A DNA stretch of 49,965 nt. It comes from a virus. Positions 25,365-46,899 of the stretch are shown here, piece by piece. The translations under genes and the position numbers were made by a program. The stretch lies in the IMG/VR virus record IMGVR_UViG_3300035016_000007, positions 1 through 49,965 of that record. One strand, 5' to 3'. How positions within the stretch are numbered: position 1 is the stretch's first letter; each line of letters opens with the position of its first letter. The notes under the pieces were generated by a model that was not told the origin of the DNA, did no database searches, and saw only the letters and a program-made list of their open reading frames with translations.

Positions 25365-25366
25365 CT

Positions 25367-27661: not shown

Positions 27662-27671
27662 GGAGGCTCCC

Positions 27672-27845
27672 TTGCCTATTCCGAAGAAAATCGATCCGCA
27701 GGCGCAATACCGCGTGACCCTGACCGACGTCGTCATGGTCGGTAAAACGCGCCTGCTTCCCCGGCCGGATCTCCAGCACACGATCAAGGGGTCTGTGCTG
27801 GAGGCAAACCTCGACAAGGTGTCCGATGCAGCAAAAGTTGATTGA
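27672..27845 (+). CDS. Small tail-fibre module protein, 57 aa
   Basis: A TTG start at 27672 follows a strong AAGGAGG. The product (LPIPKKIDPQAQYRVTLTDV, first residue read as Met) continues VVMVGKTRLLPRPDLQHTIKG and is a compact strand-turn-strand protein. Small conserved proteins of this sort accompany fibre genes and may cap or dock the fibre. It overlaps the next gene by 20 bp in another frame. Confidence 0.7.
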   Translation: MPIPKKIDPQAQYRVTLTDVVMVGKTRLLPRPDLQHTIKGSVLEANLDKVSDAAKVD

Positions 27846-28371
27846 GACCATCCAGCTCGATCGCCGGACGAAGCTCAATCACGAGCTGTTCATCCGGATC
27901 CTGACGGAAGTTCAAGCGCGGCTCGACCCGCTTGAGATCCTCCGGGACGGGCTGGAGACCGCGATCAAGCGATACGCCGATTTCGTGCGTGATCGGACCG
28001 ACCTCATCCTGGGGCCGAAGACGATCGAGATCAACGCGCTGATCGAGGAGCTGACCGAGGCGACCGCGACGGCCAAGGCGGACTTGGAGGAGGGGGCGAC
28101 GAATGCGCTTGCCCAGATCCAGCCGCAGATCGACGAGGCGCTCGAGGATGTCGACACGGCGCTTGCCGCGATCGTCACGGCGATTACGACCGCAAATGCT
28201 GCTATCGCCGCCGCCATCGGGTCGGCGGGCACAGCGACAACAAATGCGGCGAATGCCGCAACCCTCGCCAACGCCGCGGCCGCCGGCGTCGCGGCGGCAA
28301 TCGCGACTTCACTCGCATCCACCCAAGCGCAGGCCCGCCGGCAGGCAATCGCCTTCGCCGTAGCCCTCTAA
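27826..28371 (+). CDS. Coiled-coil tail fibre-associated protein, 181 aa
   Basis: MQQKLIETIQLDRRTKLNHE begins a helical head domain of about 100 residues. The last 80 residues are an almost pure Ala/Ile/Thr heptad repeat (TALAAIVTAITTANAAIAAA, then ATTNAANAATLANAAAAGVA). Such repeats form trimeric coiled coils in phage fibres. A hinge or shaft component is likely. No enzymatic motif is seen. Confidence 0.7.
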   Translation: MQQKLIETIQLDRRTKLNHELFIRILTEVQARLDPLEILRDGLETAIKRYADFVRDRTDLILGPKTIEINALIEELTEATATAKADLEEGATNALAQIQPQIDEALEDVDTALAAIVTAITTANAAIAAAIGSAGTATTNAANAATLANAAAAGVAAAIATSLASTQAQARRQAIAFAVAL

Positions 28372-28386
28372 TTTCAGGAGACTGCA

Positions 28387-28788
28387 ATGGCAGTTAGCCA
28401 TGAACCTGTGTTCGCGCAGGCAGGCCGGACCGTGTGCGCAACCGCCACGGCGGCGAAGACAACCTATAATGACATCGCGAATGCGGTCCTCCTGTGCACC
28501 GGGGGCGCGGACGGGTCGATCTTCAAGTCGCTTTCGGCAATGCCGCTTGCTACCGTGACGGCGTCGAAATTGATGCTCTTCCATGTCGATGCCGCTGGCA
28601 CGGTTGTGACTTTGGTGGACAGCGTTCTCATGGGCGCGCACACGATCGCTGTGACGACGGCAACCCCGATCTCTACCTTCACCGGGTTTTCTGAAATCCG
28701 TCTGAAGGCCGGCGAAAAGCTTTACGTCGCGTCGGGTGTGGCTTTGGCGGGGGGCATTTCCTTCACCGGTCAAGTCGAGGACTTCTAA
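28387..28788 (+). CDS. Beta-rich fibre-module protein, 133 aa
   Basis: MAVSHEPVFAQAGRTVCATA... is a beta-sandwich-like sequence of alternating hydrophobic strands (LPLATVTASK-type, AAGTVVTLVDSVLMGAHTIA) ending GGISFTGQVEDF. It has no signal peptide. It looks like a structural knob or fibre accessory. Its stop overlaps the next ATG by one base (TAATG). Confidence 0.68.
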   Translation: MAVSHEPVFAQAGRTVCATATAAKTTYNDIANAVLLCTGGADGSIFKSLSAMPLATVTASKLMLFHVDAAGTVVTLVDSVLMGAHTIAVTTATPISTFTGFSEIRLKAGEKLYVASGVALAGGISFTGQVEDF

Positions 28789-29483
28789 TGGTGGGAGCGG
28801 TCATACCCCGCCGGTTCGGTCTCAACGGCCTATCCGCCGCGCGGGGGCCGTTTCCTGTAGACCCGCCAAAGATTGGCGGTATCGGCATCAAGTATATCGG
28901 TTCGTTTGCGCTCGCTAACGCACAGGTCGCATTTAGCGGTCAAGTAGACGTCGGTGCCCCGGCCCCAAATAAAGTATTGGTTGCGATCCCTAGTTGCTTT
29001 TTAAACGCCAACGGCGGGGCTGTTGACTATGTAAAAGTGAACGGTCGAAATGCTGCCGTTTTCAGCAATTCTCATCTGTCATCTTCGCAGATGGTCTTGA
29101 CCGGAATTTGCTACATCCCTTTTTCGGAAGCGAGATCGAAGGTCAACTTTGAAGTAGGTTACAACGTCTCAGCTATTACCGCCAACTACGTTTCGATCTA
29201 CAGCGTGTTGTGCTCAAGTCCTATCCCGTCTTGGATTGGCCGAGACTTAGGAAACAGCGCTATTCTTACTGTCCCTGTAAATAAGGGGTCGGTAGGCGTT
29301 TTCTGTACTGGCTCTGGTCAAGCTTCTTCGCTGGTGAGCCTGAAAAATGGCGTGGTGGACTTCGACAACACGGGCACCGGCCGCGTGACAACTCAAGGGC
29401 GGCTTATTCGAGCTAACCAGCCCGTTACCGCCGAAAACAGCGATAGCGATGGTTTCGCCCTCGCCGCCGCTACTTGGAACTAG
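28788..29483 (+). CDS. Putative receptor-binding fibre tip, AT-richer, 231 aa
   Basis: The first 35 residues are a Pro/Gly-rich connector (RRFGLNGLSAARGPFPVDPP). The rest is a Ser/Asn/Val-rich beta domain (ALANAQVAFSGQVDVGAPAP, NYVSIYSVLCSSPIPSWIG, KNGVVDFDNTGTGRV). Bases 28900-29340 are visibly richer in A and T than the flanking genes, and codon choice shifts with them. That is typical of a receptor-binding tip exchanged by horizontal transfer. No lectin motif is recognised, so the ligand is unknown. Confidence 0.65.
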   Translation: MVGAVIPRRFGLNGLSAARGPFPVDPPKIGGIGIKYIGSFALANAQVAFSGQVDVGAPAPNKVLVAIPSCFLNANGGAVDYVKVNGRNAAVFSNSHLSSSQMVLTGICYIPFSEARSKVNFEVGYNVSAITANYVSIYSVLCSSPIPSWIGRDLGNSAILTVPVNKGSVGVFCTGSGQASSLVSLKNGVVDFDNTGTGRVTTQGRLIRANQPVTAENSDSDGFALAAATWN

Positions 29484-29491
29484 GATCAACC

Positions 29492-30118
29492 ATGGACTAT
29501 CAACGCATCATCCTTTCTGGCCCGACAATTGACGGCGAGCCCGGCCTTCCGGATGCTCTCGTGGGTCTGGCCGACGAAAGCCTCGTCGACCTCGAGGCCG
29601 CTCTCGATCCTTGCCCGGTGGAATACGTCGGCGTCGGCTATTGGCCCATCCTGCCGGCCGAGCCGCTGCCACCGAACAAGGTTCCGGTGGGGCGAGATCG
29701 CGAGATCATCGGCGGCGTGGTGCAGTGGGTCGACGACCTGGCGGACGCTCCGCACCCGAGCGGTGAGGAAATTAACGCCGAGCGCGATCGCCGCATCGCG
29801 GTCGGAAAGACTTTCGCAGTGGCAGAGTATGGCGACATACCGCTGCAAGGTCGTCTGCAAGACCAGATCAATTTGCAGGCTCGTTTGCTGGCAGCTCAAG
29901 GCGCGAAGGCTCTTGGCGTCTCGGGTCCTGTGCTCATCATCCGCGACGCACAGAACGTCAACCACATGCTCACACCCGACCAGGTGATCGAGCTTGTCAC
30001 GATGGGCACGGCATGGATCGAGGCGACCATGAAGGTGTCATGGGACATGAAGGATGGCGTTGCGCCGTTCGAGCAAGGCCCGCCCTACGACTTCGCAGAC
30101 GACGCTTACTGGCCATAG
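29492..30118 (+). CDS. Tail fibre assembly-like protein (DUF4376-like C-terminus), 208 aa
   Basis: Start at 29492 (MDYQRIILSGPTIDGEPGLP). The C-terminal 100 residues begin with the charged INAERDRRIAVGKTFAV, the usual opening of the DUF4376 domain, and continue RLQDQINLQARLLAAQGAKA and MLTPDQVIELVTMGTAWIEA. Proteins of this type sit after receptor-binding fibres and are thought to aid fibre folding or attachment. The name is by pattern recognition. Confidence 0.72.
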   Translation: MDYQRIILSGPTIDGEPGLPDALVGLADESLVDLEAALDPCPVEYVGVGYWPILPAEPLPPNKVPVGRDREIIGGVVQWVDDLADAPHPSGEEINAERDRRIAVGKTFAVAEYGDIPLQGRLQDQINLQARLLAAQGAKALGVSGPVLIIRDAQNVNHMLTPDQVIELVTMGTAWIEATMKVSWDMKDGVAPFEQGPPYDFADDAYWP

Positions 30119-30289
30119 CCCCGCGCATTCCAGTTTGTAGCGTGCCTACGGGCGGCGGGAATATCCCCGCCTTCCGCCGGGGCGGCTGACGCCCCCTAAC
30201 CTTCCCTCCCCTTTTTCATCCCTGCCGCATGCCGCGCCGACTGATCGTCCGCGCGGGCGACGGCGCATGTCCCGCGAAAGGATCCATTC
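30119..30289 (+). other. Gap between fibre module and sheath gene, with GC-rich hairpins
   Basis: A 171-bp non-coding gap. It contains nested GC-rich inverted repeats (around 30149-30195, GGCGGG and CCCGCC arms, and GGGGCGGCTGACGCCCC) followed by a pyrimidine-rich stretch. This may slow transcription or mark a recombination seam between exchangeable fibre genes and the conserved sheath module. GAAAGGA (30278-30284) provides the sheath ribosome site. Confidence 0.5.
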
Positions 30290-31525
30290 ATGACCGCACC
30301 GATTTTCGGCATGCAGTTTTCCCGCACGAGCAATGAACCGGTGTCGGTGCTCGGGCCGGACTTTTCCAAGATCATCGCAATCGAAGCATCTTCCGACGCC
30401 TCGGCCTCTGAATTCCCGCTTGAGACGGCCGTGCGCTTCTCGTCCAGCGACAAGGCGGCCCGCACGGCGCTGGGCACCGGCCCGCTCGCCGACATGGTGC
30501 GCGGGGTGCACGACCAGCTGAACGGCCTGAATGCCGGCGCCGATATCACGGTCGTGCGCGTCGCCGAAGGCGAAGACACGGCGGAGACCTGCGCGGCGAT
30601 CGGCGAGATCCTCGACGGGATCGGCGGCATTCCCTCTTCGACCAACAGCACGCCGCGCATCATCCTCGTCGGACGCACCGACTATCGCGAAGATGCGGAG
30701 ACGATGAACCCGGTGCTGGCGAAGCTCGACGCCGCCTGCGGCAAGCTGCTCGCCATTGCGCCGGTGGACGTGAATTCCATCACTGCGGCGCTGGCGATCG
30801 ACGATCGCGAAACGCTCAACAGCCAGCGCATCATGCCGATCGGCATCAAGGCGAGGGTTTACGAGGGCAGCACGCTTGTCACCCGCCCGATGGCCTCGCG
30901 TATCGCCGGCCTCTTCGTCCGGCGCGACAACGAGAGCTTCGGCAAGCCATTCGAGACGATCGCCAATCAGCCGATCCTCGGCATTGCCGGCCTCTCGCGC
31001 AACATCCCCTTCTCGCTGCTCGACGGTTCCACCGAAGGTCAGCAGATGCTCGAGGCGAATGTCTCGATCGTTGCTAAGGGCGAAGTCGGCGTCGACGGCG
31101 CGATCGCTGACGGTGGGTTTGTCTTCATCGGCACGGATGCTGCCACCACCTCCGGCGACCTGTGGACGCAGATCCACCAGACGCGCGGCACGGATTACCT
31201 GGTCGCGAAGATGGCGCAGATCACGCGCCGCTTTCTCGGCCCGCGCATCACGGCCGAGAGCGTCGAAGCCTGGTTGCATTCGATCGCCTTCATGCTGCGC
31301 GACCACAAGGCGGCCGACGACATCCTTGGCTATACGCCGCTCAACCAGATGTTCGTGCCGAACCAGAATTCGCCGGAAAACATCCGCCTTGGCAACCTGA
31401 AGATCGACGTCGGGATCGAAACCGCGCCGGCCTTCAAGCGCGCCGACCATGAGATCCGGCGCTATCGCCCCGCTGTCGAAGGTCTCGTCGAAGAGATCGT
31501 CGCGCGCCTCAACGCCGTCGCCTGA
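30290..31525 (+). CDS. FI: Tail sheath protein, P2 FI family
   Basis: 411 aa, standard for P2-like sheaths. It shows the N-terminal FSRTSNEPVSVLGPDFSKII with the strand-loop TAVRFSSSDK, the central VVRVAEGEDTAETCAAIGEI, RIILVGRTDYRED, NSQRIMPIGIKAR, and the C-terminal TRGTDYLVAKMAQITRRFLG and GNLKIDVGIETAPAFKRADH. It polymerises around the tube and contracts on infection. This proves a contractile-tailed particle. Confidence 0.95.
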   Translation: MTAPIFGMQFSRTSNEPVSVLGPDFSKIIAIEASSDASASEFPLETAVRFSSSDKAARTALGTGPLADMVRGVHDQLNGLNAGADITVVRVAEGEDTAETCAAIGEILDGIGGIPSSTNSTPRIILVGRTDYREDAETMNPVLAKLDAACGKLLAIAPVDVNSITAALAIDDRETLNSQRIMPIGIKARVYEGSTLVTRPMASRIAGLFVRRDNESFGKPFETIANQPILGIAGLSRNIPFSLLDGSTEGQQMLEANVSIVAKGEVGVDGAIADGGFVFIGTDAATTSGDLWTQIHQTRGTDYLVAKMAQITRRFLGPRITAESVEAWLHSIAFMLRDHKAADDILGYTPLNQMFVPNQNSPENIRLGNLKIDVGIETAPAFKRADHEIRRYRPAVEGLVEEIVARLNAVA

Positions 31526-31583
31526 CGTCCCGCCCCGCGCCTCGCGCGCGCGGCCCTTCTCCGCTTCCTGAAAGGTCTTCAAT

Positions 31584-32093
31584 ATGGCGCTGCCAACTCT
31601 TCTCACGGCCGTCGACGTCCGTCGTGCCGAAAAGGCCGGGACGTCCCGTGCCAACATCGTCAGCAAGGTGGTTATCCCGCCGATCAAGTTCGTCAAGGTC
31701 GACAGCAATCCGGGCGGCGGCGTCATGGGTGTTCGCCACGTCCTGCCGCGCATCGAACCGCTGGAGCCCGCCTTCACCTCGATCGGCCTCGATGAGGATA
31801 TCTTCGACGGCATGGGCGAACTCGACAAGTGGGTGCTCGCCGGCTCCTATTCCCACGCCCGTCGCGGTGTGCTCGCCGCGCGCTGCATCATCGAGGGCGT
31901 CATCTCGGATTGGGAACCCGACGAAAGCGACCCGGCGGAATTCCAGGGCTGCAACCACGTCTTCTCCGGCATCCTGCACTTCGAATTCCATCTCGCCGGC
32001 AAGGAACTGCTCTACGTCGATTTCGAAGAGCGGATCCTTCGGCGCAACGGCGTCGACCTGTGGGCCAAGTACCGTCAGGCGCTGGGGGCGTAA
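31584..32093 (+). CDS. FII: Major tail tube protein, P2 FII family
   Basis: 169 aa, the expected size. VVIPPIKFVKVDSNPGGGVM, MGELDKWVLAGSYSHARRGV, IIEGVISDWEPDESDPAEFQ and FEFHLAGKELLYVDFEERIL match the FII strand order. It forms the inner tube through which DNA passes. The gene is 58 bp after the sheath gene. Confidence 0.92.
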   Translation: MALPTLLTAVDVRRAEKAGTSRANIVSKVVIPPIKFVKVDSNPGGGVMGVRHVLPRIEPLEPAFTSIGLDEDIFDGMGELDKWVLAGSYSHARRGVLAARCIIEGVISDWEPDESDPAEFQGCNHVFSGILHFEFHLAGKELLYVDFEERILRRNGVDLWAKYRQALGA

Positions 32094-32096
32094 GGC

Positions 32097-32471
32097 GTGG
32101 AAGATTTCGCGATCGTTTCCGACGACGTGGATCCGGGTGACGGCGCGGGCGAAAGCCCGGCTGTTGCTGCGGACCCCTCCCCTGGCCCGACCATCGACGC
32201 GCGCGGCGCTGTCGCCTGGTCGCGGCGCCTTCTCCTGCCGTTCAAGGTCGACGGCCGCATGCTGCGCACCGTCGCTCTTCATTATCCGACGCAAGGCGAT
32301 ATCGACGATTTCGCGTCCGGTGAACTGGAGACTTTGCGGCATGTCCTGTGCAGGCTCACCGGCCTGCACCCTTCCGTTATCCGGGCGCTTCGGTGGCCGG
32401 ACAGTGAAGCCGTGCACCAGGCGTTCAAAGACCTGTTGCCATCCTTTATCGTTAAGGAGCTGGAAGACTAA
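32097..32471 (+). CDS. Tail assembly chaperone (P2 E / Mu gp41-like), 124 aa
   Basis: GTG start at 32097. After an acidic, Pro-rich 45-residue leader comes the chaperone core (LLLPFKVDGRMLRTVALHYP, QGDIDDFASGELETLRHVLC, LTGLHPSVIRALRWPD). Position between tube and tape-measure genes is diagnostic. In P2 this gene makes a frameshifted E+E' product. Here the tape-measure ATG overlaps the stop (TAATG) and I see no slippery site with an open extension, so a single product is likely. Confidence 0.8.
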   Translation: MEDFAIVSDDVDPGDGAGESPAVAADPSPGPTIDARGAVAWSRRLLLPFKVDGRMLRTVALHYPTQGDIDDFASGELETLRHVLCRLTGLHPSVIRALRWPDSEAVHQAFKDLLPSFIVKELED

Positions 32472-34639
32472 TGGGAAGTCTCTCCGCATCGCTTGTCGTT
32501 TCCCTCACCGACCGCACGGCGGCCGGCGCGCGTAGCGTCAAGAAATCGCTGTCCGATATTCAGCGGGCGGAGCGTGACCTTGCCCTTGCCCGCAACAATC
32601 GCCGCCTCACCCGTGTCGATCGGGCCGAGGAGGCGTTGCAGCTTGCGCGGGACCGCGAGGCCCACCGGCTGGAGATGGAGCGCGAACGCGCGCTTGAGCA
32701 ACGGCAGCGCCGTATGGGGGTGTTCTTCGGTGGGGTGACGCTGGCGGCAACGGCCGCCGGCTATGCTGCCGCCCGGAGCTATTCCAAATTCGCCGAAGTT
32801 GAACGTCAGGTCGGGCGGACTGCGCTCAATGCGGATCAAAGCGCGGACATCGTTGGGCCGACGATGACAAAACTACAGCAGATTGCGCATCATACCGCAT
32901 TGAGTTTCGAGGACGTGGCAAACGGCCTCGATACCCTTGTCGCATCGGGGCGTAGCCTTGACGATTCGATGGCATTTCTGCCGGCTGTCGCGATGACCGC
33001 GCAGGCTTCCGGCGCGGCGATCGCGGATATCGCGCTCTCCGCAGACGCCCTTGCCGGATCGATGAAGATCAATGCCGGCGAAATGCAGAAGGCGTTCGAT
33101 ATCCTCGTTGCTGGGGGCAAGGCCGGCAAGTTCGAACTCAAGGACATGTCGCAATACCTCCCCTCGCTCCTGCCGGCGTTTTCCGCGCTCGGCTATCAGG
33201 GGACGGAAGGTCTGCAAAAAGTCGTCGCCATGTTGCAGGTCATGCGCAACCAGGCGGGATCGAGCAGCGAGGCGGCAACTTATCTCAGCAACGTGCTGAA
33301 CAAGATGTACTCCGCCGACACGGCAAAGAAGTTCAAAAACTTCGGCATCAATTTGCCGAAGGCGCTGGATAAGGCGAAGAAAGAAGGCAAGGATCTGTTC
33401 GAGGTTTTCCTCGATCTGACAAGCCTCGCCACCAAGGGCGATCTTTCCAAGCTGCCGCTGCTCTTTACCGATGCAGAAATGCAGAAAGGTATGCGTGCGC
33501 TGATAACGCAACGCGATACCTTTCGGGAGCTGACCCAATCGCTTGGAAAGGTCGACGGCACGGCGCTGAAGGACTTCAACCAGATTGCCAACGATTCTGC
33601 GGCGAAGATCCAGAAGCTTTCGACATTGTGGGACACCTTCATGTCGCAGCTCGGCGGCGAGGTGGCCGACGTTGCCAATCCAGTTCTTGAGAAGGTGACG
33701 GGCGCGATTACGGATGCGCAGGCACGGGCCAAAAGCCGGAGGGAACAAGGCGAGCTTCGCGACAACAATAAGGAAGAGTTTGCCCGACGCCATCGCCGCC
33801 TCGACCCGGAAAAATACGACTTGGACAAAAACCCGTTTGCCAAGGCACTCCTCGATGAACTCTTCCGTGAGGCGGAAACACAGCAGGGCAAAGGCCAATG
33901 GAAAACTGTCTTCGACCAGGTCGACGATCAGCTCCGAACGAAGACGGCCCGACAACAATACCTTGATCAAACAGCGAAAGCTTCCACGGGGCGACAGAAC
34001 CGCTCCACGCTAGGCGCGAAGACGAACCATGGCGCTGCGGTCGACGAAGACGGAAATTATACTACTGACGTACCTGTGCCCGGCACGCGGCCAACGGCCG
34101 AAAGTGACGCGGCAGAACGCCGGCGGAACGCATACCGGTACGGCACGGGCCGGCAATTCGTCAATGACGAGGCGGTCAAGAAGTCACGGGACTGGAGCCG
34201 CGAGAACTGGCAGAACCTCAGCCGGGAAGAGCGGCGCAAACGCCTTCGGGAAGCTGATCCGCGTCAACTCGGCATGGACGGTATGTTCGGCGTCGAGATG
34301 GAAGAACAGCAACGCAAGCAGCGGACCATTGGTGTTGGTAAACCCGGCATCCTCGATGATCTCGATGGGTCCGCGCCAGTTGGCGCTTCTGCGGGCGGTC
34401 CCCGTGAGGTCACGCTCATGGGTACGCCTACCGTGATTTCGCAGCCTTCGGGCACACAGCAGGTGCAGGTGATGAACCCGACGCCGGTTCTGGCGCCGAT
34501 CACTGTCAGCGTGAGCGTGACGGCGACCAGCAATGCGGATCCTGCGGCGATCGGGCAGCAAGTCGGCAATGCGGTCGGGCAGAAGATCAAGGCGGAGCTT
34601 GCCGGAATTCAAGCCGATACAGGATGGGAGGTGGCGTAA
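32471..34639 (+). CDS. T: Tape measure protein, P2 T-like, 722 aa
   Basis: A long helical protein with an N-terminal coiled coil (SVKKSLSDIQRAERDLALAR, QLARDREAHRLEMERERALE). A hydrophobic segment follows (FFGGVTLAATAAGYAAARSY). The conserved tape-measure core follows (TKLQQIAHHTALSFEDVANG, AGEMQKAFDILVAGGKAGKF, DMSQYLPSLLPAFSALGY), then charged linker sequence. It sets tail length and may reach the inner membrane on injection. Its stop overlaps the U start (TAATG). Confidence 0.92.
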   Translation: MGSLSASLVVSLTDRTAAGARSVKKSLSDIQRAERDLALARNNRRLTRVDRAEEALQLARDREAHRLEMERERALEQRQRRMGVFFGGVTLAATAAGYAAARSYSKFAEVERQVGRTALNADQSADIVGPTMTKLQQIAHHTALSFEDVANGLDTLVASGRSLDDSMAFLPAVAMTAQASGAAIADIALSADALAGSMKINAGEMQKAFDILVAGGKAGKFELKDMSQYLPSLLPAFSALGYQGTEGLQKVVAMLQVMRNQAGSSSEAATYLSNVLNKMYSADTAKKFKNFGINLPKALDKAKKEGKDLFEVFLDLTSLATKGDLSKLPLLFTDAEMQKGMRALITQRDTFRELTQSLGKVDGTALKDFNQIANDSAAKIQKLSTLWDTFMSQLGGEVADVANPVLEKVTGAITDAQARAKSRREQGELRDNNKEEFARRHRRLDPEKYDLDKNPFAKALLDELFREAETQQGKGQWKTVFDQVDDQLRTKTARQQYLDQTAKASTGRQNRSTLGAKTNHGAAVDEDGNYTTDVPVPGTRPTAESDAAERRRNAYRYGTGRQFVNDEAVKKSRDWSRENWQNLSREERRKRLREADPRQLGMDGMFGVEMEEQQRKQRTIGVGKPGILDDLDGSAPVGASAGGPREVTLMGTPTVISQPSGTQQVQVMNPTPVLAPITVSVSVTATSNADPAAIGQQVGNAVGQKIKAELAGIQADTGWEVA

Positions 34640-35082
34640 TGCTCTACATGCTCGGCACTGTCGTCATCGACACCTCGCCATTCTCGATCGACGAAATGGA
34701 GCGCACGGCCGAGGCGTCGATCGTGGCGAAGCCCGTGATCGGCGGGCGACAACCGAAGGAATTCACCGGAGAAGGCGAGGACGATATTGTCCTCTCCGGC
34801 CAGCTCCTGCCCTATCATGTCGGCGGGCTCGACGAGCTGGAGACGCTGCATGAAATGCGCCGGCAGGGGGCGCGCTTTCCCGTGCAGCGCGGCGACGGGT
34901 GGCGGCCGGGCTGGTACGGCATCACGCGGATAACGGAATCGCATCGCGAGCTTTCCGGCGATGGCGTCGGCTATTTGATCCAACACCAAATCACCATGAC
35001 GCGTGTCGAGGCCGACCAGGGCGAGGGCCAGCAGCTCATTATCGGCCTCATCAATCTTTTCTCGGCGCTGACCGGTCAATAA
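34639..35082 (+). CDS. U: Tail terminator-like protein U
   Basis: The start at 34639 follows from the TAATG overlap with the tape-measure gene. The 147-aa product (MLYMLGTVVIDTSPFSIDEM, RQPKEFTGEGEDDIVLSGQL, HEMRRQGARFPVQRGDGWRP, WYGITRITESHREL) is a clear P2 gpU-family protein. It is a LysM-region or baseplate hub helper in this group. Confidence 0.9.
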   Translation: MLYMLGTVVIDTSPFSIDEMERTAEASIVAKPVIGGRQPKEFTGEGEDDIVLSGQLLPYHVGGLDELETLHEMRRQGARFPVQRGDGWRPGWYGITRITESHRELSGDGVGYLIQHQITMTRVEADQGEGQQLIIGLINLFSALTGQ

Positions 35083-35092
35083 GGGCTTTGCA

Positions 35093-35320
35093 ATGGCGGA
35101 GACAATCACTGTTCGCGGCGAGGGTATCACCGTGGACCTCTTACTCTGGCGAAAATACGGGGTGAGGTCGCGCAGCGTCGTCGAGGCAACGTTTGCACTC
35201 AATCCGGGCCTTGCCGCGCTGGGTCCTATTCTGCCGCTCGGCACGCTGGTGACGCTTGCCGATCTGCCGGCGGCGGCGACAAAGGTCGACGAACGACTGG
35301 CGATCTCCCTCTTTGATTGA
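35093..35320 (+). CDS. X: Tail protein X (LysM-like), 75 aa
   Basis: MAETITVRGEGITVDLLLWR...VVEATFALNPGLAALGPILP is the compact P2 gpX fold: a LysM-like unit with the conserved N-P-G-L-A turn. It links the hub to the tape measure or binds peptidoglycan. Order U-X-D is conserved. Confidence 0.9.
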   Translation: MAETITVRGEGITVDLLLWRKYGVRSRSVVEATFALNPGLAALGPILPLGTLVTLADLPAAATKVDERLAISLFD

Positions 35321-35330
35321 TGGAAATACA

Positions 35331-36353
35331 ATGAACTGGAAAGTTGATTGGCAGGTGCGCATCAACGGGCGCGACCTTTCGAGCCGTATGGCTCCGCTCC
35401 TTATCGACATCGAGGTGACCGACCAGGAGGGCACCGCAAGCGATAGCTGCTCGCTTAGCTTTGATGATGCCGGGGGGCAGATCAAACTGCCGCCGAAGGG
35501 TTCGCTTGTCGAGGTATCGCTCAATGGCGTGGTCGTTTTTCGTGGGCCCAGCGATGCGCCTCGATCGACAGGGACACGAGGGGGCGGCTCCATCCTGCGC
35601 GTCGGCGCCAAGGGGTTCGATACGCGCGGCCCGGCGAAAAGCCAGCAACTGTTCCACAAGGACGATGCGTCGCTGAAAGATTTTCTTGGGGAGGCTGCAC
35701 AGAACGCCGGCTTTTCCCTGAAAATCGATGAGCAGCTCGGCGCGATCGCGCGCGATTATTGGCTCTCGGATGGCGAAAGTTTTCTCGGCTTAGGGCAGCG
35801 GCTGGCGCGCGAATTGAACGCCACGTTCAAGTTGCGCGGTCAGGAAGCCGTCTTCATCCCCCGTGGCGCAAGTGCGCTCGCCGCCGTAGACGCCAAAGTC
35901 GGTATCGGCGGGAATGTCATCTCCTGGGATATCGAGCCATTCGCCGGACGCGGTGTCTACAAGAGTGCGAAGGTCCGTTGGTTTGACCGCGAGAAGGCGC
36001 GCTTTGAGGAAAAGGAAGTCCAATTCGATGAGGTGGACGGCGAGGCGTCCCGCGACGTGCGCACGCTCGCGGCCGACGAAGATCAGGCGGAGGGGATCGC
36101 CAAAGGCCGCAAAAGCGAGGCGGAACGTGATGCGGGAAGCGGGACAATCCAATTGGACCTTGTTGCCCATGCCCGTGCGGAGGCGCCGTTGAACCTGACC
36201 GGTTGCCGGCCGGGTGTCGATGGAACATACCGCATCACCAGCGTCACGCATCGCGCCTCGCGCACCGGCGGCGCCACCACGCAATGTCAGGTCAAGCAGC
36301 CCGGCGGCGGTGCTGGCAAGGATGATAGAAAATCTGGCGGCGGCGGCGGTTGA
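35331..36353 (+). CDS. D: Baseplate hub / late control protein D
   Basis: 340 aa, start at 35331 (MNWKVDWQVRINGRDLSSRM). The P2 gpD pattern is clear: DSCSLSFDDAGGQIKLPPKG, RTLAADEDQAEGIAKGRKSE and the final TGCRPGVDGTYRITSVTHRA. It is the central hub that carries the V spike. It is not a transcription factor, despite its old late-control name. The C-terminus is Gly-rich (GGGAGKDDRKSGGGGG) and overlaps the next gene. Confidence 0.92.
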   Translation: MNWKVDWQVRINGRDLSSRMAPLLIDIEVTDQEGTASDSCSLSFDDAGGQIKLPPKGSLVEVSLNGVVVFRGPSDAPRSTGTRGGGSILRVGAKGFDTRGPAKSQQLFHKDDASLKDFLGEAAQNAGFSLKIDEQLGAIARDYWLSDGESFLGLGQRLARELNATFKLRGQEAVFIPRGASALAAVDAKVGIGGNVISWDIEPFAGRGVYKSAKVRWFDREKARFEEKEVQFDEVDGEASRDVRTLAADEDQAEGIAKGRKSEAERDAGSGTIQLDLVAHARAEAPLNLTGCRPGVDGTYRITSVTHRASRTGGATTQCQVKQPGGGAGKDDRKSGGGGG

Positions 36354-37111: not shown

Positions 37112-37330
37112 ATGCGTCTCGCCCCCAATTGGCGCGCGGTGCTCCGCTATGCGTGGAGCATCCGCCTCATCCTGATTGCTGCCCTCCTCTCCGGCGCCGA
37201 AGTCGCCTTGCCGCTTGTCGGCGACGCGCTGCCCGTGCCGGATCGACTGTTCGCGGCGCTTTCCTTCCTCACAACCGCCGGCGCCTTCCTCGCCCGGCTC
37301 ACTGCACAGAAAGGTGTTTCCGATGAATAG
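37112..37330 (+). CDS. Putative holin, 72 aa
   Basis: MRLAPNWRAVLRYAWSIRLI has an N-terminal basic amphipathic part. Two hydrophobic segments follow (IRLILIAALLSGAEVALPLV and LFAALSFLTTAGAFLARLTA) with a short charged C-terminus. This is a small two-TM class II holin-like layout. It overlaps the endolysin start by 8 bp. It should open or depolarise the inner membrane, which also activates a SAR endolysin. Assigned by topology and position. Confidence 0.77.
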   Translation: MRLAPNWRAVLRYAWSIRLILIAALLSGAEVALPLVGDALPVPDRLFAALSFLTTAGAFLARLTAQKGVSDE

Positions 37331-37796
37331 CAGGCTCAAAAAGAGCGGCGCGCTGATGGCTGCGGCCGTGGCGCTGGTCGGCTCGTGGGAAGGGCTGCGC
37401 ACCGTCGCCTATCCCGACAAGCTGGCTTACGGCATCCCGACCGTCTGCTTCGGCGAGACGCGCGGCGTCAAGCTCGGCGATCGCTACACGGTCGACGAAT
37501 GCAAGGCGATGCTCGGCGACGCCCTGGTCGAATTCGAGCAAGGTATGCGCAAGTGCCTGAAGGCGCCCGACCAGGTGCCGGCGAAGAGCTATACCGCGTT
37601 CCTCTCCGTATCCTACAATATCGGCACGGGCGCCTTCTGCCGCTCGACGATCGCGCGCCGCGCCAATGCCGGCGACATTCGCGGCGCCTGCAACGCTATC
37701 CCGGCATGGAACAAGGCCGGCGGCCGCGTGGTGAAGGGCCTCGTCAACCGGCGTGCGGAAGAGCAGCGCATCTGCCTTGAGGGGGTGGCGGGCTGA
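37323..37796 (+). CDS. SAR-type endolysin, GH24 muramidase, 157 aa
   Basis: ATG at 37323 (MNSRLKKSGALMAAAVALVG). Residues 9-20 are a weakly hydrophobic Ala-rich segment, as in signal-arrest-release endolysins, which reach the periplasm by Sec and fire on membrane depolarisation. The GH24 active site is WEGLRTVAYPDK with Glu23 and Asp32, then PTVCFGET with Thr40. FLSVSYNIGTGAFCRSTIAR is the conserved late core. It cleaves the glycan backbone of peptidoglycan. Confidence 0.92.
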   Translation: MNSRLKKSGALMAAAVALVGSWEGLRTVAYPDKLAYGIPTVCFGETRGVKLGDRYTVDECKAMLGDALVEFEQGMRKCLKAPDQVPAKSYTAFLSVSYNIGTGAFCRSTIARRANAGDIRGACNAIPAWNKAGGRVVKGLVNRRAEEQRICLEGVAG

Positions 37797-39704: not shown

Positions 39705-40055
39705 TCAGCGGCCCTGCGCCGCAAGGTCGCGCTCGAATGCGTCCATCATCGCGATCAAAACCTCTTCGCCGACCGTGCTACCGATGCGCTGCGCCAGCGT
39801 CCAGAAGCGCTGCCGGCTTTCTTCTGTCGTCGCAATATTGAGTTTCGCGCTCCGATTGGTGCGGCGAAGGCTGCGCGCATCGAAGACGGCGGGGGCCGGC
39901 GTTGCTGCCGGCGCCGGCGCTGGGGGCGCGTGCCGGGCGGTGAAGCCGCTGCGCTCGGCTATTTCCTTCACCTCGGCCGGGATGGCTTCTTTCGGCCGGC
40001 TGCGCGGTTGAAAGTCCGGCATATCGAGGTCGAGACCAATGCGCTCTTTCGTCAT
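39705..40055 (-). CDS. ParB-type partition protein, RHH-like (stability determinant), 116 aa
   Basis: The N-terminal half is Pro/Ala-rich and probably disordered (APPAPAPAATPAPAVFDARS), as in partners that stimulate ParA through a flexible arm. The C-terminal half (RRTNRSAKLNIATTEESRQR, FWTLAQRIGSTVGEEVLIAM) fits a ribbon-helix-helix DNA-binding fold. It is coupled to parA by a 4-bp overlap (40052-40055). It should bind the repeat cluster upstream of parA (40748-40902). Small ParA plus small RHH partner is type Ib partition. Confidence 0.77.
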   Translation of the reverse strand: MTKERIGLDLDMPDFQPRSRPKEAIPAEVKEIAERSGFTARHAPPAPAPAATPAPAVFDARSLRRTNRSAKLNIATTEESRQRFWTLAQRIGSTVGEEVLIAMMDAFERDLAAQGR

Positions 40056-40735
40056 GCTGCTTTCTCCTCCTGGTCGCGCAGGACGCCGACGACGGCCATG
40101 GCGAGCTGCTTTGCGTCCGCGACGGCCGCGGCCGGCTTCGATACGTCGGCGTCGGTCAAGTCAAAGATGGTTCCGCCGAGCTGAAACATGGCGCTGTAGG
40201 CCGCGCGCTCCGGCAACCCGGCTTCCAGAACCGGGATCCCCTTCTCCGCCAGCGTGCCGCGAATGTGCTTGCTCTCGCGGCTAAGCAACGTCGAGGTCAT
40301 GGAAAAGACAACACGATAATCGATAGCCCGGCGATAGGCCTTGCTTTCGCGCTCGATGAGCGCAACCACCCTGCCCGCCTGGTCGGCGTCCAGTTGCTTG
40401 CCGCGCATGGGAATCAAGACCAGGTCAGCGCGGCCGATCGCGTAGGTCGCGGTGACGTTCGCGGAACCTTCAAGGTCGACGATGACAAAGGGATGCTTCG
40501 CGGCGGCCCCGTCTATCGTGTCGACGATCGTCTCTTCGTTTACGCCGCCGATGACATGAAGGTTGGCGGGGACGGTGGCGGCAAAGCGCTTGGCCCATGT
40601 GGCGAGCGGCTGGTTTGGGTCGGCGTCGATGAGGGTGACGTCCTTCGCGGCTGCACTGAAAACCTGCGCCAAGATCAACGCGGTCGTGGATTTTCCGACG
40701 CCGCCCTTAGTCGAGCACAAGACGATAACTGGCAT
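40052..40735 (-). CDS. parA: ParA-family partition ATPase, 227 aa
   Basis: Deviant Walker A KGGVGKST at residues 10-17, DADPNQPLATWAKR as the A' region, and VIVDLEGSANV as Walker B. It lacks the N-terminal HTH of long ParA proteins, so it is the short type Ib form. It positions plasmid copies on the nucleoid with its small partner encoded next. On a phage genome lacking an integrase, it points to plasmid-like lysogeny. Upstream lies repeat-rich non-coding DNA. Confidence 0.93.
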   Translation of the reverse strand: MPVIVLCSTKGGVGKSTTALILAQVFSAAAKDVTLIDADPNQPLATWAKRFAATVPANLHVIGGVNEETIVDTIDGAAAKHPFVIVDLEGSANVTATYAIGRADLVLIPMRGKQLDADQAGRVVALIERESKAYRRAIDYRVVFSMTSTLLSRESKHIRGTLAEKGIPVLEAGLPERAAYSAMFQLGGTIFDLTDADVSKPAAAVADAKQLAMAVVGVLRDQEEKAA

Positions 40736-40747
40736 GGATGCGCCTTC

Positions 40748-40902
40748 CTTTTCGGTTCCTTTCCACTTCCATATCGGAAACTGGTTACCACTTGGTAACT
40801 TCGTGGGCGGTTCCGTCCAATATCATACCGACATGGAAGCGGCAACAATGCCGCCACAAGCTAACTTGGAACCGACCGGGAACCCGGTTCTTACTGAGAA
40901 CC
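40748..40902. repeat. Candidate partition site (centromere) upstream of parA
   Basis: At least six GGTTCC or GGTTCT boxes lie in both orientations (near 40754, 40808, 40867, 40878, 40886 and 40897). There is also an inverted repeat GTTACC-ACTT-GGTAAC (40784-40799) and a perfect GGTTCT-5-AGAACC pair (40886-40902). The region is non-coding and abuts parA. Binding by the small RHH partner and autoregulation of parA are expected from type Ib systems. Confidence 0.63.
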
Positions 40903-40944
40903 AATATTAGAGTGTACAAACTCATTCTGCGGCATGCGGGAGCT

Positions 40945-40966
40945 GTCGCAAAGTTTGCAAACCCTC
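40945..40966 (+). repeat. Dispersed palindromic site, copy 3
   Basis: GTCGCAAAGTTTGCAAA followed by CCCTC; it matches the copy at 15769-15790 in 20 of 22 positions. It is the only copy in non-coding DNA and lies between the partition and replication genes, beside two iteron-like repeats. Confidence 0.65.
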
Positions 40967-40972
40967 CGCATC

Positions 40973-41007
40973 CATCTTCATTCGCAAATCGCATCTTCAT
41001 GCGCAAA
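40973..41007 (-). repeat. Tandem iteron-like repeats (candidate plasmid origin)
   Basis: CATCTTCATTCGCAAA (40973-40988) and CATCTTCATGCGCAAA (40992-41007) are 15 of 16 identical and repeat with a 19-bp period. The neighbouring palindrome shares the GCAAA core. They sit downstream of the replication initiator gene. Two copies are few for an iteron origin, so this is a candidate only. Confidence 0.5.
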
Positions 41008-41104
41008 CGCCTAGACCGGATCGCCGACGCTTCCTCACCCGTTCAAGAGCCGTACACCCTCACCGCACAAGAAAGGTTTCCTATTTGATTGAGACGGTGC
41101 CGAA

Positions 41105-41129
41105 CCGGCCCGCAATTTGCGCGGGCCGG
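41105..41129 (-). other. Strong hairpin after the replication initiator gene
   Basis: CCGGCCCGC (41105-41113) and GCGGGCCGG (41121-41129) form a perfect 9-bp stem with a 7-base loop, 45 bp beyond the initiator stop. No U-run follows, so it may be a Rho-aided terminator or an origin structure. Confidence 0.5.
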
Positions 41130-41173
41130 AACCGCCGCAGGGGCGCGTGAGCGGCCCGGACGGCGGCGTCCGT

Positions 41174-41890
41174 CTATTCTCTCTCCCTATTAAAGAATCC
41201 AGATAGGGATTCAGTCTGTCTGGCGGACTCACGTTGGAAAGAGATATTCCGGCCGAGGCGGGCGAGGGCGCGGCCGATCGGATTGTCGCCGACCTCGAAC
41301 AAGGCGAGCTGATCAAGGGGGAGGGTGGTACGGTAAGCGTCCAGCGCGGTTTGGCGTTCGGTATCCGCTTGTTGTCGATCGTCGGGCACGGGGGCGGCCA
41401 GGCCGTAGCGGCCGAGGAAGGCGCGGGCACGCTCCGGCATGACAAGGCGATAGGCATTGCTGGTCTGCTTCACCTGCGGTCCCTTGCCGCCGGCATCATC
41501 GGCCGCCACATAGCGCCGGAGCCAATCGACAAAGCCATGGCTGCGCAGCGCCTTCAATCCTCGCACGATCGCATCGCGCGATCGCCGCAGCTTCTTCATC
41601 ATGGTGTCGATCGACGGTTCCAGCCGGCCGGTGCGGTAATCCACCAGGTTGGACAAGAGGTCGAGGATTTCCAACGCCACGGATCCGAGCGGCCCATTGC
41701 GGGCGCCTGGCTGTTTCATGGCGACTTCATAACGGCGCGCGGCAAGCACGATATGGCGCACGTCCTGCCGGTTGGTCTTTTTCCAGATGCCCGTTTCGCA
41801 ACGGCCGGCCTCGCGGGAATGGCGGTGCACTGGCGTACGCGAGCGCTTTGCGGTCGCTCTAGCGAGCACCGCACCGAGTTGATCAAACAT
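41174..41890 (-). CDS. Plasmid-type replication initiator (winged-helix, RepA-like), 238 aa
   Basis: ATG 41890 (MFDQLGAVLARATAKRSRTP) follows GGGG and is preferred over a TTG-started extension from 41953 that runs through a hairpin. The core (WKKTNRQDVRHIVLAARRYE, then NGPLGSVALEILDLLSNLVD, IDTMMKKLRRSRDAIVRGLK, ALRSHGFVDWLRRYVA) is the wHTH of the RepA-like initiators found on alphaproteobacterial plasmids. The C-terminal third is not recognised. Being next to parA strongly supports a plasmid replication role; a transcription factor is the alternative. Confidence 0.72.
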   Translation of the reverse strand: MFDQLGAVLARATAKRSRTPVHRHSREAGRCETGIWKKTNRQDVRHIVLAARRYEVAMKQPGARNGPLGSVALEILDLLSNLVDYRTGRLEPSIDTMMKKLRRSRDAIVRGLKALRSHGFVDWLRRYVAADDAGGKGPQVKQTSNAYRLVMPERARAFLGRYGLAAPVPDDRQQADTERQTALDAYRTTLPLDQLALFEVGDNPIGRALARLGRNISFQRESARQTESLSGFFNRERE

Positions 41891-41949
41891 AGTCCCCAAC
41901 GTCCTCTCGATGGAGGGCCGCGACTCGGAGGCAAAAAAACTTCGTTCCG

Positions 41950-42018
41950 GCAAGAGCGGACTCTTGCAGGTTCTTCAGCTTCAGACTATGTTTGGAGCGT
42001 TATCTAGGCTCTCCAAAC
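41950..42018 (-). promoter_or_regulatory. Leader hairpins upstream of the replication initiator
   Basis: Two perfect hairpins: GCAAGAG-CGGA-CTCTTGC (41950-41967) and GTTTGGAG-13-CTCCAAAC (41990-41997 with 42011-42018). They lie 60-130 bp upstream of the initiator ATG. Structured leaders of this kind set copy number in many plasmids, through antisense RNA or repressor binding. No antisense promoter is proved. Confidence 0.55.
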
Positions 42019-42037
42019 ACAGACGCCTCGTAATCCC

Positions 42038-42070
42038 AAAAACCCCGGCCGCGCCAACGGCGGGGTTTTT
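42038..42070 (-). terminator. Bidirectional intrinsic terminator closing the leftward operon
   Basis: A run of A, then ACCCCG pairs with CGGGGT followed by a run of T (42038-42047 with 42061-42070). The U-runs on both strands allow termination in both directions. On the minus strand it follows the last gene of the leftward early operon by a few bases and insulates the replication gene. Confidence 0.82.
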
Positions 42071-42074
42071 TCTT

Positions 42075-42281
42075 TTAAGCCCTCGTGTTTTCTATATAAA
42101 ACCTCACGGCTTCGACGATCAGCGGGGCACGCGATGCATCGCCTCGCTCTTTCTTGATTCGGTCCATCTCGGCGATAAGATCCGCCGGCATGACCGCCTG
42201 AATATTCACCAAGCCAGCGGCGGCTTGGCGCGCACGGGTTGCTGCAACTCTGTCGCGGCTGGGTCGGGAATCAGTGCTCAT
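42075..42281 (-). CDS. Ribbon-helix-helix (CopG-like) protein, 68 aa
   Basis: Started at 42281 (MSTDSRPSRDRVAATRARQA). After a basic N-terminal arm the chain has the RHH order: strand VNIQAVMPADLIAEM, then helices DRIKKERGDASRAPLIVEA and VRFYIENTRA. Small CopG-type regulators often control plasmid copy number or neighbouring promoters. Here it may act on the leader of the adjacent replication gene. It ends at the bidirectional terminator. The last gene of the leftward operon. Confidence 0.75.
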   Translation of the reverse strand: MSTDSRPSRDRVAATRARQAAAGLVNIQAVMPADLIAEMDRIKKERGDASRAPLIVEAVRFYIENTRA

Positions 42282-43007: not shown

Positions 43008-44126
43008 CTATGCCGCGATCTTCGGGAATTCGTTGTGCTCGACATCATCCAGCCGCCGGCCGGCCCGTCGCTTGCCGACGCGGGAAACAGTGTCGTCGTC
43101 GATGTCGTCGCACCACATGGGACGGTAGGGCTCGCCCCAGCGACCATCCTCCCAATCGCGATGGTCAATGCGGCTGATCTCGGGATCGTCGTTTATCGTC
43201 CATCCATCCACCGCGCCGACTTGGGGAACCCATTCGCCCCACTGCTTGAAGAGGAACGGGACGCCGGCGGCCGTGCACTGATCCCGCAGCGCGCGAATCC
43301 ATTCGACATGCATCGGGCGGGCATCGGGGCCGCTCTCGCCGCCTGCGACAACCCAATCGAGGCGGGGAAGTATGGGGCCAGTCGCCATCTCTTCGAGGTT
43401 GAACCAATCGAGAAAGCTGGCTTCCCAATCCGGCGTGCTGTCGCGCCAATTCTCGATTTCCTGTTCCCACGTGCGAATGTTGAGGGCGTCGACAAAGCTG
43501 TCGCCGTCGATATCGATGGATGTCAGGTCGACGCGGCCGAGCAGCGGTTCGGCGCTGACCCACCGGATCGCCGCCGGTGTTTGCAGCAGCTCGGGGATCC
43601 GCTCTTCCGCGCGGCGCTGGTCTTCGACAGAAACGCCGAGCCAGACATTCGGGAGGATCGGGGCGATGTTATCGCTGGTGACTTTGGGCGTGTAGGCGGG
43701 CGTGGCCGCCATCCGCCGGCTATATTGGCGTGGATCAGACAGATATTCCCGCATGCGCTTCGCCCTCTTGGTGAGAACCTGAAACGTGTGCTGCGGGGCA
43801 AGCGCCATGATGGCGAACACCTGGTCAATCCATTCGTCCGGAACCCCCTCTGCGAAAAGGTCGCCATGGGCGCAAACGAAGATCATGCGCGGGCGCGACC
43901 ATTTCAGCGGCTGGGTCAGCCATTGTTCATTGAGCCGCACCTCGCCCGTCCAGACGGGGCCGGCCTTGCTGTCGCGTGTCAGGCCTTCGCGGCTCGGATG
44001 GTTCTTGAGACGCGTTCCGGCAAGGCGCATGGCGTAGCAATTTGTGCAGCCGGGGGAGGCGATCGCGCATCCCGTGATCGGGTTCCACGTCGCGTCGGTC
44101 CATTCGATAGCGGTATGGTCAGCCAT
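43008..44126 (-). CDS. Phage Gp37/Gp68-family (DUF5131) three-Cys protein, 372 aa
   Basis: Start 44126 gives MADHTAIEWTDATWNPITGC, the hallmark opening of the family, with Cys20, Cys27 and Cys30 in GCAIASPGCTNCYAM. This resembles a radical-SAM-like metal site. Further conserved parts are VFAIMALAPQHTFQVLTKRA, NIAPILPNVWLGVSVEDQRR, AEPLLGRVDL and GGESGPDARPM with HVEWIRALRDQCTAAGVPFL. These proteins often pair with a TcmP methyltransferase-like partner; none is evident here. The biochemical role is still unsettled. Confidence 0.88.
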   Translation of the reverse strand: MADHTAIEWTDATWNPITGCAIASPGCTNCYAMRLAGTRLKNHPSREGLTRDSKAGPVWTGEVRLNEQWLTQPLKWSRPRMIFVCAHGDLFAEGVPDEWIDQVFAIMALAPQHTFQVLTKRAKRMREYLSDPRQYSRRMAATPAYTPKVTSDNIAPILPNVWLGVSVEDQRRAEERIPELLQTPAAIRWVSAEPLLGRVDLTSIDIDGDSFVDALNIRTWEQEIENWRDSTPDWEASFLDWFNLEEMATGPILPRLDWVVAGGESGPDARPMHVEWIRALRDQCTAAGVPFLFKQWGEWVPQVGAVDGWTINDDPEISRIDHRDWEDGRWGEPYRPMWCDDIDDDTVSRVGKRRAGRRLDDVEHNEFPKIAA

Positions 44127-45811: not shown

Positions 45812-46071
45812 TATGCGTCTCCTTTCTCGGTGCCAGATGTGTTTAGGGCGGAGCGAGCGTCAGACGACCGGTCGAGCGAGGTCTCAACCAGCTCGGTCAA
45901 GGACACGAACTGAGCATCCGCCGCCTGACGTTGCACATGTGCGATTGCGTCTTCGAAAGATCGGAAAGACTGCCGACCTCGCATCGGATCGGGATGCACA
46001 GGCGGTCGTGCTCCAGCGATCCATTCCAGCGAGAAACGGCGCTCACGAATTTCCTTCACCGGTTCATTCAT
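45811..46071 (-). CDS. Hypothetical protein, 86 aa
   Basis: Start 46071 (MNEPVKEIRERRFSLEWIAG). The sequence has a basic start, a helix (FRSFEDAIAHVQRQAADAQF) and a tail ending ALNTSGTEKGDA. The TSGTE tail resembles a segment in the 135-aa protein encoded at 46278-46685, evidence of segment sharing between neighbouring genes. No function is recognised. Confidence 0.7.
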   Translation of the reverse strand: MNEPVKEIRERRFSLEWIAGARPPVHPDPMRGRQSFRSFEDAIAHVQRQAADAQFVSLTELVETSLDRSSDARSALNTSGTEKGDA

Positions 46072-46285
46072 CGGAGTTGCCTTTCCGATTTGGGGCGGTG
46101 TCGCCGTACCGGTAGGTTTCCATCGGCCCATCGACCTCCTCGCCAGTCTCCAGATCGACGGTCGGAGAGCCCTCAAGGCACGCTGCGTGGCAGATACCCA
46201 TCTCGATATCCGTTGCGCAGATATCGTCATCAAGCAGCGGCTCGGCGCAGATCGGGCAGGTGTCGATGTCGGGATGATCACTCAT
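46064..46285 (-). CDS. Duplicated small Cys-rich protein, copy 1, 73 aa
   Basis: MSDHPDIDTCPICAEPLLDD has a CPIC pair and a later HAAC in GICHAACLEG, suggesting a zinc knuckle. The first 41 residues are identical to those of the 46678-46899 product and 63 of 73 match overall. The end (NRKGNSDE) differs. Function unknown; the duplication indicates dosage or divergence within the operon. Confidence 0.78.
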   Translation of the reverse strand: MSDHPDIDTCPICAEPLLDDDICATDIEMGICHAACLEGSPTVDLETGEEVDGPMETYRYGDTAPNRKGNSDE

Positions 46286-46685
46286 CGGCCTGGCCTTTCG
46301 ATTTTGTAGTGGCAGCCAGATCACGCAATGCGGCATTTACGGCCGCGTTCTCTGATTTGTACCCGTCGTTCCATGGCCCACCTGGCGCCTGCCAGTGCCA
46401 CTGCCTGTCGGCGTCCGAGCCGCACACGACATAGCCGGCGCCCACAAGGCGTGGATCCTCGCAGCTACCCCGAAGATTCATCGGATCTTCGTTACCTTCC
46501 GTGCCAGATGTGCTTAGGGCGTCGCGGGGCTCTGCCTCGCCGTCGAACAGGTCAACGCCCTCTTCGAACATGACGGCCATCATTTCGACTTCGTCGGGCG
46601 TGAGGCGGACGCCTCTGCCTTTCGCTGCGTTGCGGTGGCACTTGCGCAGGATCGAATGCCAAAGGGACCGGTCGATCTCAGCCAT
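46278..46685 (-). CDS. Hypothetical protein, 135 aa
   Basis: Start 46685 (MAEIDRSLWHSILRKCHRNA). The N-terminal half is helical (RGVRLTPDEVEMMAVMFEEG). The middle contains DALSTSGTEGNEDP, like the end of the 86-aa neighbour. The last half is Gly- and Trp-rich (GSDADRQWHWQAPGGPWNDG). It ends TKSKGQADE, a C-terminus shared with other genes here. A chimeric origin is likely. Located between the two copies of the duplicated gene. Confidence 0.7.
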   Translation of the reverse strand: MAEIDRSLWHSILRKCHRNAAKGRGVRLTPDEVEMMAVMFEEGVDLFDGEAEPRDALSTSGTEGNEDPMNLRGSCEDPRLVGAGYVVCGSDADRQWHWQAPGGPWNDGYKSENAAVNAALRDLAATTKSKGQADE

Positions 46686-46899
46686 GATCGGCGCCTTTCG
46701 ATTTTGGGGCGGTGTCGCCGTACCGGTAGGTATCCATTGGGCCGTCGCGCTCGTCGCCAGTCTCCAGATCGACGACGGGAGAGCCCTCAAGGCATGCCGC
46801 GTGGCAGATACCCATTTCGATATCCGTTGCGCAGATATCGTCATCAAGCAGCGGCTCGGCGCAGATCGGGCAGGTGTCGATGTCGGGATGATCACTCAT
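46678..46899 (-). CDS. Duplicated small Cys-rich protein, copy 2, 73 aa
   Basis: Nearly identical to the 46064-46285 product: same MSDHPDIDTCPICAEPLLDD start, CPIC and HAAC pairs, ten substitutions, and a different end (KSKGADHG). The DNA identity extends over about 220 bp including the upstream overlap, so the event was a recent direct duplication of gene plus ribosome site. Function unknown. Confidence 0.78.
   Translation of the reverse strand: MSDHPDIDTCPICAEPLLDDDICATDIEMGICHAACLEGSPVVDLETGDERDGPMDTYRYGDTAPKSKGADHG

Follow-up and report, generated by a model that had tools for sequence, protein, structure and literature searches.

Bacteriophage P1 is a temperate myovirus that persists as a low-copy plasmid with a rep gene, ParAB-type partition, a toxin-antitoxin system and a separate lytic initiator. 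Its par system is of type Ia, its replicon consists of RepA and iterons, and it carries Cre. The window analysed here is the whole of a 49,965-bp IMG/VR record (IMGVR_UViG_3300035016_000007), which probably works like P1 in lifestyle, at about half the size of P1; neither P1 relatives nor gene content shared with P1 are among the matches listed. Phage-plasmids are a known kind of element, defined by carrying, besides phage genes, those for plasmid replication and partition (PMC11652158). Among hosts of the same order, a plasmid prophage has been demonstrated (PMC5492332) for the Ochrobactrum phage POI1126, a podovirus unlike the myovirus in the window, and Sinorhizobium pLM21S1 is a plasmid-like prophage (PMC5537653) of 117.5 kb with a RepC replicon, against ~50 kb and a pAgK84-type RepA in the record. 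Agrobacterium pusense plasmid B has been described as an intact prophage related to Aurantimonas phage AmM-1 (PMC5081363). AmM-1 itself (AB967974) is, like the virus in the window, a temperate contractile-tailed Hyphomicrobiales phage with a ParA (38% identity), a small gene downstream of it and a similar tail, but it has no RepA of the pAgK84 type and its capsid protein is only 25% identical.

The likeness of the replication region is to ordinary plasmids. The pAgK84-type replicons (pAgK84, pSmeRU11a, pAtCFBP4996c and others) share with the record RepA, a four-hairpin leader, a palindrome after repA and a ParA nearby. They differ in that several are conjugative or mobilizable, that the stretches read contain no phage genes, and that their ParA and partner alleles are different (~45%).

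In the window, genes for the virion, lysis and lysogeny form a near-complete set and are combined with a plasmid-homologous initiator and a partition system. We conclude that the dormant virus is very probably an autonomous, low-copy, circular plasmid prophage of a temperate myovirus of soil bacteria, the Rhizobiaceae, and that the record represents a new, well-supported phage-plasmid group with a pAgK84-type replicon. We infer the low copy number and autonomous replication of the element, as we do its stability, its inducibility, the location of its origin and every regulatory step described below.

Circular assembly and phage gene content

The first and last 127 bases of the record are identical, so that it closes on itself; 127 is a common assembler k-mer, and the match shows a circular assembly rather than a physical repeat. 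For the record itself the circular state is read from these ends only, and for its relative in Rhizobium rhizoryzae from a closed extrachromosomal plasmid. A crude gene call yields 78 genes. The initial annotation described a complete myovirus genome with a lambda-type head and a P2-type tail, and both the identical ends and a full late operon on the plus strand agree with this. Packaging and head genes occupy positions 13221-20629 (small terminase, large terminase GpA, portal, S49 protease, decoration and major capsid proteins), followed by a P2-type contractile tail and baseplate at 21045-36353 (sheath, tube, tape measure and homologs of gpI, gpX and gpD) and by holin and endolysin at 37112-37796 (PHROG 1356 and PHROG 7). 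A phage replication initiation protein, which likely serves lytic replication, is encoded on the same strand at 10109-11443 (PHROG 270, E 4e-28).

The repressor and HicAB genes lie on the minus strand. The repressor proposed earlier is found as a CI-like protein with an S24 peptidase domain at 3336-4019 (Pfam Peptidase_S24 above cut-off, PHROG 4), 55% identical to the CI of the R. rhizoryzae phage-plasmid. The HicAB pair proposed with it holds at profile level for the HicB antitoxin (8297-8722; Pfam HicB_lk above cut-off, PHROG 497), and HicA (8768-9010) is probable from its position and GSH motif only.

A plasmid that captured a phage, forming a defective and non-infectious cointegrate, would likewise unite phage genes, which could be relics, with a backbone of the ordinary-plasmid pAgK84 type. 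Nevertheless, none of the head, tail, lysis, repressor or CII-like genes is missing, and they follow phage order with open frames, the element is of phage-like size, and the combination has been kept in at least four independent genomes; we regard capture as extremely unlikely. Almost no credence is given to a virulent or pseudolysogenic phage whose ParA and RepA serve intracellular replication only: circular assembly equally fits a permuted or replicating genome, and ParA has other roles in some phages, as seen in many weak phage matches, but the window encodes a CI-like S24 repressor, a CII-like activator and HicAB, and a relative resides as a plasmid in R. rhizoryzae. In the plasmid prophage that we favour, the CI-like repressor would silence the lytic genes and HicAB would add post-segregational stability. 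Upon induction, the phage initiator would take over replication, and the GpA terminase would package the DNA into the lambda-type head with its P2-type tail.

Two further loci on the minus strand were observed. The gene at 43008-44126 encodes a DUF5131 or radical-SAM-like protein (Pfam E 2e-93) that also matches PDC-M41B and PDC-M30B, candidate defence models of PADLOC; many of the phages compared encode relatives. At 46064-46285 and 46678-46899 lie nearly identical 73-aa genes (MSDHPDIDTCPICAEPLL...) with one other gene between them, a recent local duplication as judged from the sequence.

Replication region and the repA leader

The initial annotation placed a plasmid backbone at 39705-41890, and repA, parA and the partner gene are indeed found there in that order, all on the minus strand. 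The backbone as a whole extends from 39.7 to ~42.28 kb, and includes the repA leader and an RHH gene that had been missed. The predicted plasmid-type HTH initiator is RepA, a 238-aa protein encoded at 41174-41890; it is identified by homology to the annotated RepA proteins of pAgK84 and other plasmids, along with a Pfam match to HTH_36 below the cut-off (E 0.0017). Its predicted structure is of very low confidence (pLDDT 43). The repA gene is ~70% identical in DNA to that of pAgK84 and to the repA of ~100 Rhizobiaceae plasmids. The region at 41.1-42.0 kb matches plasmid DNA at 68-72% identity over ~0.9 kb in many plasmids of Rhizobium, Agrobacterium, Shinella and Sinorhizobium, and the matching genes, that of pAgK84 included, are annotated as replication protein A. 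RepA of the R. rhizoryzae phage-plasmid is 55% identical. A second, more distant repA is present in R. rhizoryzae on another contig (G226:C6:27062-27757), and two related replicons may thus coexist in one strain.

The synteny of pAgK84-type replicons is kept on both sides of repA, with an RHH gene upstream, the four-hairpin leader, and the palindrome downstream. The RHH (CopG-like) gene lies at 42075-42281 on the minus strand and is 46% identical to its RHH counterpart at the corresponding position of a Ciceribacter plasmid; several other plasmids have an RHH/CopG annotation at the matching place upstream of repA. The non-coding block 3' of repA (41096-41173, minus strand) shares 75 of 84 bases with pAgK84 and contains the palindrome CCGGCCCGC-n7-GCGGGCCGG (41105-41129), which makes the block a candidate oriV or RepA target. 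The palindrome recurs at the same offset in R. rhizoryzae, in the metagenomic genome G003 and in most of the 12 plasmids compared; in R. rhizoryzae and G003 it is preserved through compensated changes, and in the metagenomic genome G001 and an R. oryzihabitans plasmid it is not intact. Two 16-bp direct repeats (CATCTTCATKCGCAAA) separated by 19 bp at 40973-41007 are weakly iteron-like. No sigma-70-like promoter was found within the plasmid block.

The repA leader (41891-42071, minus strand) is predicted from pairing and covariation to fold into four hairpins: IV at 41901-41919, III at 41947-41970, II at 41986-42022, and I, a bidirectional terminator, at 42038-42071. In an alignment of 16 sequences, the three internal helices are paired in 85% of cells, against 38-46% in slid versions, and contain 26 doubly changed cells, against 3-9; none of 500 shuffles reached the covariation score. 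The leader has no match in Rfam, and in the sequences extracted the four-hairpin arrangement is common to phage-plasmids and ordinary pAgK84-type plasmids. Counts of G-U pairs indicate a clear strand preference for hairpin III (16 G-U against 1 A-C) and none for hairpin II (19 against 18); as the preference is clear for hairpin III alone, the leader and an antisense RNA are indistinguishable. A long-range pairing of 10 nt that would link the leader to the start of repA, exact in the window, was dropped as it is absent from most plasmids. The conserved structure is possibly a new copy-control RNA, acting either as leader or as antisense, and it offers a testable copy-control mechanism for pAgK84-type plasmids at large.

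In the mechanism we propose, RepA made from the leader-controlled transcript would start plasmid replication at the palindromic block just 3' of repA. The leader and the RHH protein would keep RepA, and with it the copy number, down, and an antisense RNA terminated by hairpin I would probably act together with the leader in copy control.

Partition module

The partition ATPase ParA (227 aa, 40052-40735, minus strand) starts with MPVIVLCSTKGGVGKST and carries at residues 10-17 the deviant Walker A motif KGGVGKST noted in the initial annotation. Its assignment is reinforced by profile matches to PHROG 164, 'ParA-like partition' (E 8e-33), and to Pfam VirC1/CbiA. The nearest solved structures are ParF (4dzz) and ParA (5u1g) in the PDB, of the ParF/TP228 type. 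ParA falls into type Ib, being short, without an N-terminal HTH and nearest to ParF. It is 78% identical to the ParA of the R. rhizoryzae plasmid.

The putative ParB-like centromere-binding partner (116 aa, 39705-40055, minus strand) is recognised by its position after parA, with a 4-nt overlap with the parA stop, and by its orthologs. These lie directly 3' of parA on the R. rhizoryzae plasmid (64%), in G001 (65%), on Aureimonas plasmid pAU20d (53%) and on two Rhizobiaceae contigs. In PLSDB, partner homologs were found in two plasmids only, those of R. rhizoryzae and Aureimonas, and a close partner gene is present in 3 of 395 Rhizobiaceae genomes, one of which is R. rhizoryzae; the contigs of the other two show no homologs of the virion genes of this phage in the stretches read. 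The protein has a conserved xLDLxxxxF motif in a predicted disordered N-terminal half, and a low-confidence model adds a C-terminal strand-region/helix/helix arrangement. The small gene described earlier as an RHH-like partner is thus present beside parA, and an RHH fold is plausible for its product, with which the topology of the model is compatible. The protein has no profile match in Pfam or PHROGs, a fold search returned nothing significant, only weak TCP/MatP-like matches, and profile comparison with the Rhizobium sp. X9 'stability/partitioning determinant' revealed no homology.

A gene at 5625-6971 (plus strand) fuses a ParB-like N-terminal domain to an MT-A70 methyltransferase (PHROG 21315, E 4e-137, function not assigned) and has a 60% identical relative in G016. 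It was rejected as the ParA partner, being far away from parA and lacking from relatives with the same ParA.

The repeat-rich DNA described earlier between the rep and par genes is an array of CGGTTC/GAACCG boxes (40753-40902, minus strand) that precede parA at -167, -155, -149, -138, -78 and -23, some of them spaced 11 bp apart. The region 40701-40920 is the densest place for GGTTC/GAACC in the record, with 6 boxes in 200 bp against a mean of 0.44. The spacing is kept in relatives: boxes precede the R. rhizoryzae parA at identical positions (-167, -155, -149, -138 and -23) and the G001 parA at nearly the same ones, and the box at -22/-23 recurs before parA in pAU20d and G192. By analogy with type Ib systems, the array is likely the parS site and operator. 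The ParB-like partner would bind it and, together with ParA, would segregate plasmid copies and autoregulate the par operon.

The par module also occurs elsewhere. A 46,790-bp Rhizobiaceae contig (G200:C24) has the same ParA (75%), the partner and nine CGGTTC-type boxes, with neither virion-gene homologs of this phage nor a pAgK84-type RepA; it is another plasmid sharing the module. pAU20d is typed as mobilizable (MOBQ, traA), and no phage genes were found in the 30 kb of it that were read.

Plasmid relatives and integrase-bearing kin

The initial annotation proposed a search for relatives among plasmids and phages, which led to a closed plasmid in R. rhizoryzae and to two circular metagenomic genomes with RepA and ParA, G001 (52.6 kb) and G003 (54.8 kb); among the metagenomic members only those with RepA and ParA have circular ends. 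The decisive relative is plasmid unnamed1 of R. rhizoryzae DSM 29514 (NZ_CP049247.1), a closed circle of 54,249 bp with orthologs of RepA, ParA, the partner, CI, portal, protease, capsid (77%), baseplate, sheath, tube, tape measure and late control protein. Like the record, it has a contractile-tail operon and no integrase. It differs in its large terminase (27%), in its primase/helicase early genes, in having BrnTA where the record has HicAB, and in its rep and par genes, which lie at separate places; its annotation is that of a plain plasmid. As this closed circle bears orthologs both of the rep-par block and of almost all late-operon genes, genomes of this type occur extrachromosomally in cells, in support of the earlier proposal of a temperate myovirus maintained as a plasmid. 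The 'plasmid' of DSM 29514 is in fact a prophage in a named, experimentally tractable isolate, and the group described here brings to rhizobial phage-plasmids one with an available isolate. It also links pAgK84-type plasmids to phages, and implies that their backbone can spread by phage infection too.

Directly beside repA, G001 carries a small serine recombinase (8118-8747) of plasmid resolvase/invertase size. The record has no such gene.

An ordinary integrating prophage with accessory ParA and RepA-like genes, inserted by an unrecognised or host recombinase or by homologous recombination into resident prophages, would be in keeping with its kin, as its close relatives by capsid lie in chromosomes as prophages and have tyrosine integrases. 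In the record, however, no integrase, resolvase or transposase was found. A profile search gave no match to PF00589 or PF00239, and a PHROG scan of the predicted genes, except a few very small ORFs, detected no integrase, recombinase or transposase, in line with the absence of a recombinase noted earlier. A distant integrase, named in the initial annotation as evidence that would count against a plasmid prophage, was not found by profile search in any of the four RepA- and ParA-bearing genomes (the record, the R. rhizoryzae plasmid, G001 and G003), all of which lack a tyrosine integrase. Given also that the plasmid backbone is complete, its non-coding replication elements being conserved, and that R. 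rhizoryzae has a closed circular relative, we consider an ordinary integrating prophage very unlikely.

The search with the capsid protein retrieved prophages in bacterial chromosomes and trimmed IMG/VR prophage records. Nine relatives with capsid proteins 62-75% identical have a tyrosine integrase and lack RepA: integrases were found in G002, G006, G008, G010, G011, G012, G014 and G015, and near a prophage on a 2.2-Mb scaffold of Agrobacterium genomosp. 13. The ParA of the window is absent from the virus records among the nine. G009, in which an integrase is apparently missing, shares ~89% identity with the Agrobacterium prophage and is probably trimmed, since it ends exactly where the integrase of that prophage lies. 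Across all records, an integrase is present in none of the 4 RepA-bearing genomes and in 9 of the 15 others (Fisher p 0.087, post hoc), or in 9 of 12 when fragments and one trimmed record are left out (Fisher p 0.019, post hoc). These counts, which come from few independent genomes, suggest that integrase and RepA exclude each other.

The large terminase of the record is 59-73% identical to those of several RepA-less relatives, integrated ones included, and only 27% identical to those of plasmid relatives, which indicates an exchange of virion modules between integrated and plasmid lifestyles. A tree of the capsid proteins is compatible with one or several origins of the plasmid type. The genes for integration and those for plasmid upkeep resemble cassettes that can replace each other beside a common set of virion genes, and the integrating relatives with similar capsids provide a natural comparison for the switch of temperate phages between chromosome and plasmid. 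For a broader reading we put the chances about even: a single Rhizobiaceae myovirus lineage would lie dormant either integrated or as a plasmid, depending on whether it carries an int or a pAgK84-type rep-par cassette, and the plasmid cassette would bring an undescribed copy-control leader RNA common to this class of Agrobacterium and Rhizobium plasmids.

Chromosomal attachment junctions, which the initial annotation likewise held to speak against a plasmid prophage, did not come up in RepA- and ParA-bearing relatives, with one ambiguous scaffold. In Rhizobium sp. FKY42, a relative similar to G003, with RepA and ParA, occupies 1-52.4 kb of a 169-kb scaffold and continues into the late operon of a second prophage at a tail gene that the two share, an arrangement that would speak for integration. 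The scaffold starts inside a copy of this same tail gene. The join would be expected if the assembler had opened a ~52-kb circle at a repeat; it may also be a real cointegrate, the product of occasional integration through homologous recombination.

Another rhizobial plasmid, MesoLjLa5 of Mesorhizobium sp. L-2-11 (NZ_AP023261.1, 56.7 kb), has no RepA or ParA of the present type. Its late operon, of the contractile-tail type, is full, and it gives a weak match to a tyrosine recombinase; it is a candidate for a different phage-plasmid.
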